A DNA stretch of 64,000 nt from Pseudanabaena sp. Chao 1811 (GTDB lineage: Bacteria > Cyanobacteriota > Cyanobacteriia > Pseudanabaenales > Pseudanabaenaceae), in assembly GCF_027942295.1 (NCBI RefSeq), contig NZ_CP101416.1:4636501-4700500 (forward strand). The letters are read 5' to 3'. Below the pieces are notes generated by a model that was given only the letters and a program-made list of their open reading frames with translations, did no database searches and had not been told where the DNA came from. Of the stretch, positions 5,537 to 20,101 are shown in pieces (the first letter of the stretch is position 1; each line of letters opens with the position of its first letter). The translations under genes were made by a program, and so were the position numbers.

Positions 5537-6037
5537 ATGACAGTTCCCCAAGACCCAATCCAGTTTTTAACATTAGCCGAAGCCCATGCGATCGACGGAG
5601 CGCTTCTGTCAACGATGGAAAAATTTATGACCCGCATCACAATTTCTTCGATGCGGATCATCACCAAAATTGCTCAAGAGCTTAGTGTTCATGCAGAAAC
5701 TCTTTCAGCACAACAAATTGTGCAATGGATTGAGCATGATTCGCAGATTCGGAAAGAGCAAGGTGAAGATGCTGCCTTTCTCAAATGGTCTTCCCCCCAT
5801 CCTGATCTAGATTTTGAAGATACTAGACAGGATGAAGTGACCCCAGCCAAGCTTTCCAGCCATGAGAAATTTTTAACTCGTATGGTGATTTCGGCAATGC
5901 AAGCATTAACTGCGATCGCTAAAGACTACAGTGTTCATCTCGAAGATTTGACCGCAGAGCAAGTAATTACTTGGGTAGAGCGTGATGCTAAAGTCAAGCG
6001 TGAACAGGGTATCGAGGCATCATTTCTATCTTGGTAA
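5537..6037 (+). CDS. Unknown protein built of two tandem 60-residue repeats
   Basis: A 166-residue protein not recognised beyond its architecture. Residues about 25-84 and 107-166 are an internal duplication: each begins EKF(M/L)TR(I/M), continues with ISxM and a run ending (L/Y)SVH, then (L/Q)xAxQ(I/V)(V/I)xW(I/V)E(H/R)D and closes with REQGxxAxFL(K/S)W. Predicted helical, soluble, no signal. It starts 85 bases after the Psb34-like gene on the same strand, so co-transcription is possible. Confidence 0.65.
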   Translation: MTVPQDPIQFLTLAEAHAIDGALLSTMEKFMTRITISSMRIITKIAQELSVHAETLSAQQIVQWIEHDSQIRKEQGEDAAFLKWSSPHPDLDFEDTRQDEVTPAKLSSHEKFLTRMVISAMQALTAIAKDYSVHLEDLTAEQVITWVERDAKVKREQGIEASFLSW

Positions 6038-6053
6038 ATCTCTTGTAAATTCT

Positions 6054-6653
6054 TTAGTGTCTAGCAAAACTCAGAAGATTAAACAAATTATTGACGGATA
6101 TTTGCCAGCCTTTTAAGACTTCTGGCACAGGCAAAAGATCTTCACCTCGGTGACTATTAAAGCGATCGCCTTGAAAGCTAAGTACGGTTCTTTCTTGAGG
6201 GGCAATAAGCCAGCCTAGTTTTGTACCATTTTGTTTTGTGCCATGTTTAAGAGCAAAGCTGATTTTATCGATGACATCAATCGGTGACTGATCAGGCGAC
6301 AGAATTTCAATGAGCCAGTCTGGTGGGATTTCAATTCTATTAACAATTTCACCATTAGCATCAAGGGGAATATGCTCCCACTCAAATACAGCGATATCAG
6401 GAACAATGGATCTTCCTGCAAAGGTGCAGCGCAGTTCAGGAAAGGCAAAAACGATTTGCTCAGGTTCACCACGTTGATTAATCGTAGCAACTAGTTTTCC
6501 CTGCAATGTGCTGTGTTGTCCCTGCGGCATTGGTTTCTGAGTAATATTTCCTTTGATATATTCACTAGCTGGCTCAGTTTCAGGAAGCACTAAAAAATCT
6601 TCCAGTGAAATAAGACTAGGTTGTGATGGTTTTGGTTGAGTAGTAGCTAGCAT
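6054..6653 (-). CDS. Uma2 family (DUF820) putative endonuclease
   Basis: A 199-residue member of the Uma2 family, a PD-(D/E)XK nuclease-like fold hugely expanded in cyanobacteria, with no settled biological role. Visible family landmarks are LISLEDFLVLPE, ASEYIKGNITQKP, the catalytic-type strand RSIVPDIAVF and PPDWLIEILSPDQ. It lies 16 bases downstream of the phosphoribosyltransferase on the same strand and could share its transcript. The Uma2 genes at 18.0 and 22.5 kb are divergent in sequence. Confidence 0.85.
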   Translation of the reverse strand: MLATTQPKPSQPSLISLEDFLVLPETEPASEYIKGNITQKPMPQGQHSTLQGKLVATINQRGEPEQIVFAFPELRCTFAGRSIVPDIAVFEWEHIPLDANGEIVNRIEIPPDWLIEILSPDQSPIDVIDKISFALKHGTKQNGTKLGWLIAPQERTVLSFQGDRFNSHRGEDLLPVPEVLKGWQISVNNLFNLLSFARH

Positions 6654-7322: not shown

Positions 7323-9071
7323 GTGGTAGCTGTTACTGAGATTCCATCTATTGGCAACATTTTAGAGAAGCCTATTGAGCGTCGCCTAACCGTGCAGGTT
7401 TCGGAAATTGCGGCTGACACTACTACCATTCGATCGCTAGATTGGGATCGCGATCGCTTTGATATTGAGTTTGGCTTGCAAAATGGGACAACTTATAACT
7501 CCTATATCATTCGTGGCGAAAAATTAGCCCTAGTCGATACATCACACGCTAAGTTTCGCGAACTATACCTTAAAACCCTCAAGGAACAAATAGATCCCTC
7601 TCAGATTGATTACCTAGTCATCAGTCATACAGAGCCAGATCATAGCGGACTAGTAAAGGAAATTTTAGAACTCGCACCCAATGTCACCGTAGTAGCGACA
7701 AAGGTTGCATTGCAATTTTTGGGTGAGTTGATTAACCGACCTTTTAAACAGCAAGTTGTCAAAAATGGCGATCAAGTAGATCTCGGTAAAGGGCACATTT
7801 TACAGTTTGTGAATGCGCCAAACTTGCATTGGCCCGACACGATGATGACCTTTGACCATGCCACCTCGATTTTATATACCTGCGATATTTTTGGAATGCA
7901 CTATTGCAGTGAGGCAACCTACGACGAGGACTTGCAAAAGATTACGCCCGACTATCGCTTTTACTATGAATGCTTGATGGCTCCCAATGCGCGATCAGTC
8001 ATCTCGGCAATGAAGCGGATGGATGAGTTGCCTCAGGCGGAAATCGTCGCTAATGGGCATGGTCCTCTGCTGCGCTACAACGTTAAGGAATTGACTGAAA
8101 ACTATCGCCAATGGAGTCAAGCCCAAACCAAGGGCGAAACTAACGTTGTGGTTTGCTATGTGTCCGACTATGGCTATTGCGATCGCCTATCGCAAGCGAT
8201 CGCCCGTGGGATCGCCAAAACAGGTGTCGCCGTGGAAATGGCGGATCTCAAGGCGATTGATTTGCAGGAATTGCGGGAACTAGTGGGTCATGCTTCGGGC
8301 TTAGTGGTATGCACACCGCCAGCATCCAATAGTCGAGTAGAAACGGCGATCGGCGCAATCTTGGCAGCAGCAACCGAAAAGCAAGTAATTGGGTTGTATG
8401 AGCCGCACGGGAATGAAGATTCCTCCATTGATTTGTTGAATAATAGATTTAAGGATCTAGGGGTAGTGACAGCTTTTCCTGCGATTCGCGTCCGAGAAAA
8501 TCCCAATGAAGCGATATATCAGACCTGTGATGAGGCGGGAACTGACTTAGGGCAGTTGCTCACTCGTAAGCAAAATATCAAACAACTCAAGGCGATCGAT
8601 GCTGATCTCGATAAAGCTTTGGGCCGTTTAGCGGGTGGTTTATATATTATTTCCGCCGCCAAGGGTGGTGCTCGGAGTGCGATGTTAGCCTCTTGGGTCG
8701 CGCAGGCAAGCTTCAAGCCCCTTGGATTTACCGTTGCGGTGGCAAAGGATCGGGCGATCGAGTCATTTATGCAAGTAGGCGATCGCTTTGTCTTGAATGT
8801 GCTCGAAGATGGCAACTATTCCAAACTGATGCAACATTTCCTCAAGCGATTTGCTCCTGGGGCAGATCGCTTCGAGGGTGTGAAAACGCAAATATCTAGC
8901 TCTGGCGCACCGATTCTCACAGAGGCTCTTGCCTTTATGGAATGTGAAGTAATGAGTCGGATGGAATGTGCTGATCACTGGATTATCTATGCGATCGCTG
9001 AAGAAGGTCGTGTTTCTAAACCCGATGCGCTTACCGCCGCCCACCATCGCAAAATTGGCAACCATTATTAA
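7323..9071 (+). CDS. flv3: Flavodiiron protein, Flv3 type
   Basis: A 582-residue cyanobacterial flavodiiron protein with three domains: a metallo-beta-lactamase-like diiron domain (about 1-265), a flavodoxin-like FMN domain (about 275-420) and a C-terminal flavin-reductase domain (about 430-582). Diiron ligands are canonical: HTEPDHSG, NLHWPD, CDIFGMHYC and NGHGPLL, as in Flv3 rather than Flv1, whose ligands are substituted. Such proteins reduce O2 to water with electrons from photosystem I. No flv1 partner is in the window; Flv4 also has canonical ligands, so the exact paralogue is inferred. GTG start at 7323, after AGGGAGA. Confidence 0.85.
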   Translation: MVAVTEIPSIGNILEKPIERRLTVQVSEIAADTTTIRSLDWDRDRFDIEFGLQNGTTYNSYIIRGEKLALVDTSHAKFRELYLKTLKEQIDPSQIDYLVISHTEPDHSGLVKEILELAPNVTVVATKVALQFLGELINRPFKQQVVKNGDQVDLGKGHILQFVNAPNLHWPDTMMTFDHATSILYTCDIFGMHYCSEATYDEDLQKITPDYRFYYECLMAPNARSVISAMKRMDELPQAEIVANGHGPLLRYNVKELTENYRQWSQAQTKGETNVVVCYVSDYGYCDRLSQAIARGIAKTGVAVEMADLKAIDLQELRELVGHASGLVVCTPPASNSRVETAIGAILAAATEKQVIGLYEPHGNEDSSIDLLNNRFKDLGVVTAFPAIRVRENPNEAIYQTCDEAGTDLGQLLTRKQNIKQLKAIDADLDKALGRLAGGLYIISAAKGGARSAMLASWVAQASFKPLGFTVAVAKDRAIESFMQVGDRFVLNVLEDGNYSKLMQHFLKRFAPGADRFEGVKTQISSSGAPILTEALAFMECEVMSRMECADHWIIYAIAEEGRVSKPDALTAAHHRKIGNHY

Positions 9072-17875: not shown

Positions 17876-17927
17876 GTATTTACTTAGTCTCTTTTCACAA
17901 CGCAATACAATAGTATAGCAACCCTTC

Positions 17928-17964
17928 CAAGACAAGAGTGGCGGCGGCGCTGCCTCTTGTCTTG
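17928..17964. repeat. Inverted repeat between divergent cobO and Uma2
   Basis: CAAGACAAGAG (17928-17938) and CTCTTGTCTTG (17954-17964) flank a GGCGGCGGCGCTGC centre. It lies in the shared 132 bp promoter region, so it could be an operator or a palindromic repeat. Confidence 0.45.
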
Positions 17965-18007
17965 TATAGTACAATCCGAATAGCTAGGATACTTCTGGGA
18001 TTAGCTA

Positions 18008-18715
18008 ATGCTACAAATAGATCTCAAACATCTGCCCACCAGCGACGAATTACCTGATTCCGATGATACGCCTGTGGATAACGAAGACCAGAATTTTGTA
18101 CCGAATTTACTATTGTTCTTGTTGGAATATATTTGGAAAAGTCGCGATGATTGGTACTTTGGTGTGGATATGGGGATCTATCACACCACTGGCGTAAGTC
18201 CTAGAGTTCCTGTAGTTCCCGATGGATTTTTGAGCTTGGGAGTGGAACGTCGTAAAAATGGTGGATCACGCAGCAGTTATGTGATGTGGGAAGAAGAAGA
18301 TACTGCACCGATTTTGGCTTTAGAAGTTGTATCCCATACCTATGGCGATGAATATGAAAAGAAGTTGGATATTTATCGCCAACTAGGTATCAAATATTAT
18401 GTGATTTACAATCCTCAATTCTGGCGGCGCGATGGACATTTGCCTTTTGAGGTTTATACATTAGTTGATGGTGATTACCAATTACAAATTGGTGAACCTC
18501 TATGGATGCCAGAAATCGGCTTAGGGATTGGACGTTGTGTTTTGCCAAGCGATCGCTTGAGTCGTGAAGTTTTAAGCTGGTTTGATCAAAAAGGCGATCG
18601 CTATCTTACAGCGGAGGAACAAGTTGATTTAGAAAGACAACGGGCTATTGAGTCACAGAAACAGGTGGATTTGTTAATGGCAAAGTTGCGATCGCTTGGT
18701 ATATCTGAAGAGTAG
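18008..18715 (+). CDS. Uma2 family (DUF820) putative endonuclease
   Basis: A 235-residue Uma2-type protein of the larger cyanobacterial subfamily. Landmarks: PVVPDGFLSLGVERRK with the catalytic-type Asp, APILALEVVSHTYGDEYEKK with the E-x-K-like strand, YRQLGIKYYVIYNP and a C-terminal coiled coil rich in Gln/Glu (EEQVDLERQRAIESQKQ). Role unknown. Single gene; ATG at 18008. Confidence 0.87.
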   Translation: MLQIDLKHLPTSDELPDSDDTPVDNEDQNFVPNLLLFLLEYIWKSRDDWYFGVDMGIYHTTGVSPRVPVVPDGFLSLGVERRKNGGSRSSYVMWEEEDTAPILALEVVSHTYGDEYEKKLDIYRQLGIKYYVIYNPQFWRRDGHLPFEVYTLVDGDYQLQIGEPLWMPEIGLGIGRCVLPSDRLSREVLSWFDQKGDRYLTAEEQVDLERQRAIESQKQVDLLMAKLRSLGISEE

Positions 18716-18938
18716 AAGCCCACACTGAAATCGCGATCGCACGAAATAAATTCATTTAGCTACAGCCAAAAGTTCATTTAGCTTATTTTTTAGATCTGGG
18801 GATGTTCTTAAGGAACTGTAGAGTTCGTCTGCGTAAAATTATATTTAGAAATTTATATTTAAAGATTCGCCAGCTTGTGCTGATGAATGCTAATATTTCT
18901 ATTAGTCACGACAAACAAGACAAAAGTAGCTTTTTGTC

Positions 18939-19210
18939 TTGACAAAAATTATTGTTGTGTTTTATTTAACCCTATCTACGCTAAAAGCGAGGATGACAGT
19001 ATATTGAGAAAGGAACACGCATTGCGGGGCATTAGTATTGTTGCATCAATACTAGTACCCTTCGCGAGTCTTGAAGCTAGTTTTCAAACCGCCAAACACG
19101 AGACTGGAAGCGATGTTACATACCAAATGGTAATATCTCTAAAGACAACCTCAAAACGTTAGTTCAGAGACTTAAGCAAGTAGGTGCTACCAACATCTGC
19201 TTGCTTTTTT
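18939..19210 (+). ncRNA. Candidate structured small RNA of about 240 nt
   Basis: Inside a 652 bp gene-free stretch. A TTGACA box (18939-18944) is followed 17-18 bases later by a weak -10 (TTATTT/TATTTA), and a Rho-independent terminator lies at 19174-19210. Between them is an 8-bp perfect hairpin TAGTATTG-loop-CAATACTA near 19030-19052, enclosed by GCGGGG and CCCTTCGC, which could extend the stem. No good reading frame with a ribosome site. It could be 6S-like or another small RNA; I could not match it to a known family. Confidence 0.4.
19174..19210 (+). terminator. Rho-independent terminator with no gene in front
   Basis: Stem AAGCAAG/CTTGCTT extended by GGTG/CATC, followed by TTTTTTATTT. 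The nearest upstream gene ends 460 bases before, so the terminated transcript is probably the candidate RNA. Confidence 0.7.
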
Positions 19211-19367
19211 ATTTAACTTAGTTAACGTATTGCTATCGTATTGGTTACATACCAATATGTCAAGAGTAGATTTTCTTCTTACTGATTTCTGATTGCGTCA
19301 AAGCGTTGCTGAGAGAGTATTTCCATCTTTTACTTCATTTCACTCTGACCTTAGTAGCAGCCTAAAT

Positions 19368-19715
19368 TCATACTTTATACCCAAGCGTAAACAAAACAAC
19401 ACTTTCTAAATCAGCGATCATCCCTGAATCTAACTGTCCCAACCTTTTAATCAATCGAGTTTTATCAAGGACTCGAAGCTGATGACAGAGTGCCACTGAA
19501 TCTTGACTTAAGCCACCTTGATCACTAGGGATTAACAAACAAGTTGGCAGAGCTGCCCGTCGTAAGTTAGTTGTGAGGGGAATTGTGATGATAGTGCTAG
19601 TGAATTTAGAGATTGTGTTTTCTTGAAAAATGATAATTGGACGAGTGCCAGCTTGCTCTGAGCCTTGAGTTGGATCGAGAGTTGCTAACCATATTTCACC
19701 ACGAACCACTTTCAT
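19368..19715 (-). CDS. MazF/PemK-family endoribonuclease toxin
   Basis: A 115-residue protein of the MazF/PemK fold: VVRGEIWLATLDPTQGSEQA, GTRPIIIFQENTIS, TIITIPLTTNLRR and the C-terminal half QDSVALCHQLRVLDKTRLIKRLG. Conserved MazF positions (RG(E/D)(I/V)W, PRP-like TRPIII, QDSVA) are present, so it should cleave RNA when free of its antitoxin. ATG at 19715 is preferred to GTG at 19727. It overlaps the upstream antitoxin gene by 20 bases, the classic layout of a toxin-antitoxin operon. Confidence 0.9.
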   Translation of the reverse strand: MKVVRGEIWLATLDPTQGSEQAGTRPIIIFQENTISKFTSTIITIPLTTNLRRAALPTCLLIPSDQGGLSQDSVALCHQLRVLDKTRLIKRLGQLDSGMIADLESVVLFTLGYKV

Positions 19716-19950
19716 TTTTGTCCTCACTGTTCAAGAGTTCAGCATACTCAGAAATCCCTACTTCAGCCAGTTCTCGATCTTCCTGAGCAAATTCTTGATA
19801 GAGGTTAGCAAACTGACTAATATCGGCTGTCGGCTGACTAAATCTCGTTTGAAACTTGATAAAAGCAATAAAATCTGCAACTTGCTTTAGCTGTTGATCA
19901 TTAAATTGGTCTAACTCTTGTTTAAGGTATTCCTTAGTGATTACTGTCAT
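19696..19950 (-). CDS. Antitoxin partner of the MazF-like toxin
   Basis: An 84-residue acidic, helical protein (TKEYLKQELDQFNDQQLKQV, then FIAFIKFQTRF, then a flexible acidic tail AQEDRELAEVGISEYAELLN). It resembles the short antitoxins, often annotated near DUF2281, that precede MazF-type toxins in cyanobacteria. Assignment is mainly by position. Its 5' end overlaps the end of a possible small gene upstream by 17 bases. Confidence 0.8.
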   Translation of the reverse strand: MTVITKEYLKQELDQFNDQQLKQVADFIAFIKFQTRFSQPTADISQFANLYQEFAQEDRELAEVGISEYAELLNSEDKNESGSW

Positions 19951-20101
19951 TGCTAAACACCTCGCAAATTCTCATCACAACTTCTCGCTCAATTATAAAA
20001 GAATATAGTTTTCCGTTGTGGCTAATGCCAAAGACAAGATAATCTGCGGATTGGGTATAGGGGTTACATGGGCGAAAATCTTTGTATAAGGCATAATTAA
20101 T
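19934..20101 (-). CDS. Possible small third gene of the toxin-antitoxin unit, start unclear
   Basis: A 55-codon frame reading INYALYKDFRPCNPYTQSAD, then YLVFGISHNGKLYSFIIERE and a tail overlapping the antitoxin start by 17 bases, which suggests coupling. No ATG, GTG or TTG lies at a sensible place; an ATT at 20101 has GAGG 8 bases upstream (20110-20113), so a rare ATT start is possible. Otherwise the gene has lost its 5' end. The frame continues open to 20257 but that part is antisense to another gene. Not recognised. Confidence 0.35.
   Translation of the reverse strand: MNYALYKDFRPCNPYTQSADYLVFGISHNGKLYSFIIEREVVMRICEVFSNDSNH

Follow-up and report, generated by a model that had tools for sequence, protein, structure and literature searches.

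A 52-residue peptide gene beside cobO in Pseudanabaena: a possible type I toxin-antitoxin-like module, part of which occurs in two phage contigs

What is encoded around positions 18939-19210 of this window (the whole 64,000-nucleotide stretch of Pseudanabaena DNA that was analysed)? The initial annotation noted a TTGACA box, a stable hairpin and a strong terminator surrounding about 240 nt with no plausible gene, and proposed 6S RNA or another regulator. The signals themselves are real, but the RNA reading built on them is mostly wrong. Specifically, a search of the whole window against Rfam yields zero matches at the gathering score, and at E values up to 10 the local search gives only chance-level matches, none of them to 6S RNA (RF00013); 6S RNA and other Rfam families were accordingly rejected. 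The region resembles 6S RNA in size and differs in that an Rfam match is absent; the covariance model places the genome's own 6S RNA at G000:C1:836177-836364, with 62.9 bits, above the cut-off.

A short gene between a structured leader and a terminator

The claim that no plausible gene is present is contradicted by a constrained open reading frame on the forward strand (19004-19162), which runs from a TTG start to a TAG stop and specifies 52 residues. A Shine-Dalgarno-like GAGGA (18989-18993, forward strand) lies about 10 nt before the start codon, which is rather far. The counterpart in G018, a Pseudanabaena MAG (record JADBWK010000131.1), is 53 residues long, also begins with TTG and carries AAGGAGG about 10 nt from its start codon. 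The two peptides are 61% identical overall and 74% identical over the final 27 residues, which contain the conserved tail GSDVTYxxVISLKTTSKR-stop; the terminal ISLKTTSKR-stop is common to both.

The differences between the two genomes are distributed as in a coding sequence. Over 51 aligned codons (3 gapped columns of 54 were left out), codon positions 1, 2 and 3 differ 15, 14 and 27 times, and the whole frame gives dN 0.36 and dS 1.33 (dN/dS about 0.27); for comparison, dS in cobO is 0.79 for the same genome pair. When the substitutions are randomised, 32.0 amino-acid changes are expected for the whole frame, against 20 seen, and none of 20,000 randomisations is as low. Moreover, 83% of these randomisations acquire a stop codon, whereas both actual frames stay open. 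For the C-terminal part (dN 0.18, dS 0.82) the corresponding values are 6 changes against 12.1 expected (P 0.0002). Codon usage is poor for a gene, at the 2.4th percentile of in-frame windows and the 90th percentile of open out-of-frame windows. We consider it well supported by this comparison that 19004-19162 is a protein-coding gene. Conservation in related genomes, proposed earlier as a check on a structured RNA, is found in G018, where the feature held in common is the reading frame.

Upstream of the gene, the TTGACA box is indeed present at 18939-18944, but it does not serve as evidence of a promoter there: it has no -10 partner, no forward-strand promoter scoring at least 8/12 begins at that site, the box coincides in part with the 3' side of the leader hairpin, and it is not conserved in G018. 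A better candidate is TCGCCA-18-TAATAT with an extended -10 TGC (18867-18896, forward strand; 8/12), whose counterpart at the aligned place in G018 is TTGCCA-18-TAGTAT (9/12). Sites scoring 8/12 are common, with five on the forward strand within 700 bases here, so the argument for this one is the position that it shares with G018.

Near the predicted 5' end, a leader stem spans 18907-18959 on the forward strand, with a z score of -3.4 here and -3.3 in G018. This leader forms a two-storey stem. In its inner hairpin (18916-18941) nine consecutive pairs are kept in G018, followed by a mismatch; in two of the nine both bases have changed, and in one a single base; the outer stem forms in both genomes with its register shifted. 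At the other end, the strong intrinsic terminator is confirmed, with a stem at 19174-19206 followed by T's (z -4.6; 0/200 shuffles as good). The whole terminator spans 19174-19212 on the forward strand, and its stem is kept in G018, where manual re-registering aligns ten pairs, of which three have changed on one side only. The stretch 18980-19215 folds better than 200/200 shuffles (z -3.3). As for stable hairpins, two are found, the inner leader hairpin and another at about 19022-19067; the second is not conserved and was rejected as a conserved RNA element, with a z score of -4.7 here versus -0.4 in G018. The forward strand would read, in order, as a promoter, a structured leader, a TTG-started gene for a 52-residue peptide and a terminator, and its predicted transcript is best taken as an mRNA. 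The case shows that a short TTG-started gene can be mistaken for an intergenic RNA.

The peptide has no match to Pfam families at E values up to 1, HOK_GEF of the Hok family included, and none in PADLOC or PHROGs; two NCBIfam matches both fall far under their cut-offs. In both species a basic N-terminal start gives way to a hydrophobic stretch, despite differing letters, with a hydropathy peak over 15 residues of 2.1 here and 1.75 in G018. AlphaFold2, run with an alignment of two sequences, predicts a helix at residues 6-20 and strands at 22-34 and 37-49 (mean pLDDT 72.5); blocks of residues 21-50 score 82, 91 and 84, and residues 1-20 score 52-55. Because a hydrophobic N-terminal segment precedes a conserved 27-residue tail, we expect that the peptide is probably membrane-anchored or exported. 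Type I toxins are usually shorter than 60 residues and carry a hydrophobic segment, and this peptide, at 52 residues with its predicted helix at 6-20, has both properties. Two other product types were set aside. By eye, a proper lipobox of a lipoprotein is absent, and the precursor of a modified peptide is not favoured, since conservation is concentrated in the C-terminal part and no modification enzyme was seen when six adjacent ORFs were scanned.

A patchily distributed cassette with a candidate reverse promoter

Searches at the DNA level across 58 genomes, including the window's own, match only this genome and G018, at 83% over about 70 bases. The G018 match adjoins the same two-domain cobO gene. 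With the peptide as query, 2 of the 26 genomes of the genus match at E values up to 0.001 and 8 of 26 at E values up to 10. Several of the weak matches in other Pseudanabaena genomes were set aside: L014 is antisense to another gene, a 41% match in a frame of 758/759 residues (L007, L013) misses the GSDVTY core and is taken as chance, and L041 is a terminator. Class-wide, 2 of 388 genomes are positive, with no further chromosomal member beyond the window and G018, and a scan of GTDB r220 returns one locus, the G018 record. Two chromosomal copies, one of them from a MAG, are thus found, and plasmids and named phages yielded no copy.

The gene lies within a cassette of roughly 0.6 kb (18755-19331) that is common to G018 and absent from the other genomes of the genus. 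The alignment breaks on both sides, at approximate edges, and the flanking neighbours differ between the two genomes. Two relatives (G002, G011) have an empty site beside cobO without the cassette, and four (G021, G016, G008, G003) carry the cobO-Uma2 arrangement without it. Here the cassette adjoins a Uma2 gene and a gene pair made up of a MazF-like gene and a small partner (19696-19950, reverse strand), an antitoxin by position only, for which no Pfam family is found at cut-off. More broadly, the stretch beside cobO (about 17876-19960 of the window) is a variable spot in the genus, where Uma2 genes, MazF-like genes, the cassette and other material are exchanged between species.

The left edge of the cassette is a degraded gene, the remnant of an unrelated gene's 3' end (18757-18840, reverse strand) with the tail LKNKLNELLAVA; open frames with the same tail occur in three other genomes (G001, G006, G009). 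It was rejected as a live gene, since both here and in G018 it has no start codon and is preceded closely by an in-frame stop. Its divergence from G018 is nevertheless coding-like (dN 0.08, dS 0.67, at few sites).

On the far side of the terminator, and facing back into the gene in both genomes, lies a near-consensus candidate promoter, the reverse promoter: TTGACA-17-TACGAT here (19235-19263, reverse strand; 10/12) and TTGACA-18-TATGAT in G018 (11/12), about the same distance from the terminator. Sites as good occur somewhere in 3.9% (window) and 1.0% (G018) of shuffles of stretches of about 240 bases. This promoter predicts an antisense RNA that would cover the reading frame and the 3' UTR, placed at 18908-19228 on the reverse strand by combining the promoter with the terminator scan. 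As a guess, its 3' end would be formed by a minus-strand terminator-like hairpin at 18941-18916. The proposal of "another regulator" may therefore be half right for the opposite strand, given a promoter kept in both genomes.

A piece of the locus in phage contigs

Exactly the antisense-side half of the locus is also held by two phage contigs. A first viral scan with the window's peptide as query found no match, and the phage copies surfaced only when IMG/VR was scanned with a degenerate DNA pattern. That scan gave three matches, one to an unrelated protein and two (L076, a shorter record of the contig also taken as L079, and L077) that encode the exact G018 tail; both were confirmed in two later searches. 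Each contig carries 239 bp that are 99.6% identical to positions 1835-2073 of the G018 locus (L004), comprising codons 27-53 and part of codon 26, the stop codon, the terminator and the reverse promoter. With the whole G018 cassette as query, this piece is all that is found in either phage record, both of which are fragments; neither includes the sense promoter, the leader or the first 25 codons.

The contig that carries the piece matches a virion structural protein (PHROG, E 2.8e-19). When 15 kb of it are compared with the 26 genomes of the genus, with at most 11 candidates scored per genome, the piece is the only near-identical match; the remaining matches are at 68-74%, except for the 83% between the piece and the window's own genome. 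Elsewhere in L079, a 274-base patch (5860-6133) is 77% identical to Pseudanabaena phage PA-SR01 (MT234670.1 88345-88623), where no feature is annotated, and the first 7.7 kb otherwise have no PA-SR01 match. The patch is perhaps a conserved non-coding phage element.

The piece occupies an accessory slot, and all 11 other contigs reaching across this slot (11 of 11) have different content there. The slot is 22 nt in L084, L085 and L094, 54-98 nt including a hairpin in L086, L087, L088, L092 and L098, and about 1.0-2.0 kb with further ORFs in L090, L091 and L101. These 11 are not all independent, as L084 and L085 have almost identical sequences at this place; the count excludes L089 and L093, whose contigs stop short of spanning the slot, further loci on contigs already counted (L099, L102), and L083, L095, L096, L097 and L100. 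Just upstream of the slot region, L077 (5429-5953) and L088 (about 8372-8896) have an ORF of 175 residues that looks leucine-rich-repeat-like by eye and is absent from L079.

Two other explanations of the piece were weighed. Use as an attachment site appears less likely, with no integrase among the 16 phage ORFs scanned with PHROGs. An assembly chimera is unlikely, because both junctions recur in two contigs whose upstream genes differ, even if the samples may be related. A single acquisition event could explain both contigs, and the capture itself may have been passive.

Within the phage stretch 4700-5400 the best promoter is the reverse one (11/12), and a forward promoter was not found there; the number of promoter-like sites as such, 2, does not exceed the shuffled mean of 2.3. 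A minus-strand RNA from this promoter would run for about 213 nt before meeting, where the piece ends, a hairpin of roughly 15 pairs with T-rich sequence behind it. This hairpin has a long loop and is missing from the list of the terminator scan, which names another minus-strand site slightly further on (L076 4911-4897). Since the reverse promoter scores high, no forward promoter is found and a hairpin lies downstream, the antisense unit appears to be the only complete transcription unit that can be recognised in the phage.

A type I module and its rivals

We propose, at a probability of about 0.45, that the cassette is a module resembling type I toxin-antitoxin systems, complete with an antisense RNA. 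The reverse promoter beyond the terminator would drive an RNA across the 3' UTR and the gene, this RNA would pair with the mRNA, and the membrane peptide would thereby be kept off. Were the antisense RNA lost, as might happen when an infecting phage halts transcription in the host, the peptide would be made. The antisense half with its promoter, borne by a phage lineage in an accessory slot, would on this reading supply the antidote during infection. Of the elements of this proposal, the coding constraint, the conserved leader and terminator, the patchy cassette, the conserved reverse-promoter sequence and the piece in two phage contigs are observed, whereas both transcripts, the membrane location, toxicity, neutralisation and any benefit to the phage are inferred.

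Overlap on the 3' side is a familiar geometry of type I antisense RNAs, and BsrG/SR4 is one pair of this kind. TxpA/RatA is another, a type I system described as having an antisense RNA that overlaps the toxin mRNA (PMC12390103). The present locus resembles systems of this type, as they are outlined there, in its hydrophobic peptide of fewer than 60 residues and in an opposite-strand promoter whose predicted RNA would extend over the coding region and the 3' UTR; it differs in that the peptide has no counterpart among the families of Pfam, NCBIfam (at cut-off), PADLOC or PHROGs. According to the same source, type I systems were known only from Proteobacteria, Firmicutes and Tenericutes before a cyanobacterial candidate of 2025, MsoT1/MsoA1 of Microcystis aeruginosa, a small protein with an opposite-strand antitoxin RNA (PMC12390103). 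By its description, MsoT1 is set apart from the present peptide, with 63 residues and two predicted membrane helices there and 52 residues and one hydrophobic segment here (PMC12390103).

The main rival, which we regard as a substantial possibility, is a gene for a small exported or membrane protein that is non-toxic and has no antisense partner, perhaps one that is secreted or that serves the envelope as an accessory factor. On this view the reverse promoter would be a chance occurrence and the phage piece a passive product of recombination. Coding constraint and a hydrophobic N-terminus suit such a protein too, the most conserved part of the peptide is its tail rather than its hydrophobic segment, and promoter-like sites are common in sequence of this kind. 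Against it, the reverse promoter is kept in both genomes, and the phage piece retains that promoter while being devoid of the sense promoter and the first 25 codons.

For the phage, the main alternative is the open sense frame. In both contigs the captured frame runs on uninterrupted from a new ATG and hydrophobic beginning, to which chance or selection has joined it in phase, giving 39 residues. The captured tail could be translated from that ATG, perhaps interfering with the host peptide. We consider this improbable: the new ATG falls within a hairpin that, read on the forward strand, likewise finishes in a T-rich run, no forward promoter is found nearby, and by eye there is no good Shine-Dalgarno site.

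A forward transcript that acts as a regulatory RNA, with its reading frame incidental, would account for the stable folding, the conserved leader and terminator and the poor codon usage. It is improbable in view of the third-position bias and low dN/dS, the strongest internal hairpin not being conserved and Rfam giving no match. Least probable of all is a decaying, non-functional relic of a mobile cassette, which the neighbouring gene remnant, the patchy distribution and the codon usage might suggest, but which is at odds with a low dN/dS and with a start, stop and terminator kept at a divergence where cobO dS is about 0.79.

A fuller reading, which we regard as less likely than not, is that the cassette represents a new Pseudanabaena type I toxin-antitoxin family in phage defence, and that a phage lineage took the antisense antidote gene alone as an RNA-only counter-defence. 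A precedent is pseudo-ToxI, an RNA antitoxin sequence that phage PhiTE is described as carrying against ToxIN, where one escape mutant took sequence of the host locus by recombination (PMC3475682). The likeness is that the phage here bears 239 bp of a host-type locus, with a presumed antitoxin role; the difference is that pseudo-ToxI is type III, as described, its RNA binding the toxin protein, whereas the antisense RNA here would act on the toxin mRNA (PMC3475682). Under the counter-defence reading, the reverse promoter and 3' half in the accessory slot would be a type I counterpart of pseudo-ToxI. Among the titles and abstract openings of the open-licence papers that literature searches listed, none describes a phage-borne type I antitoxin as counter-defence. 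The place of type I systems in phage defence is itself debated, because the role of hok/Sok in T4 defence is reportedly re-evaluated in a paper of 2026 (PMC13047441). If the reading is true, an antisense-only phage copy would be a natural dissection of the module, revealing which of its parts acts as the antidote and that the module is of consequence in infected cells.
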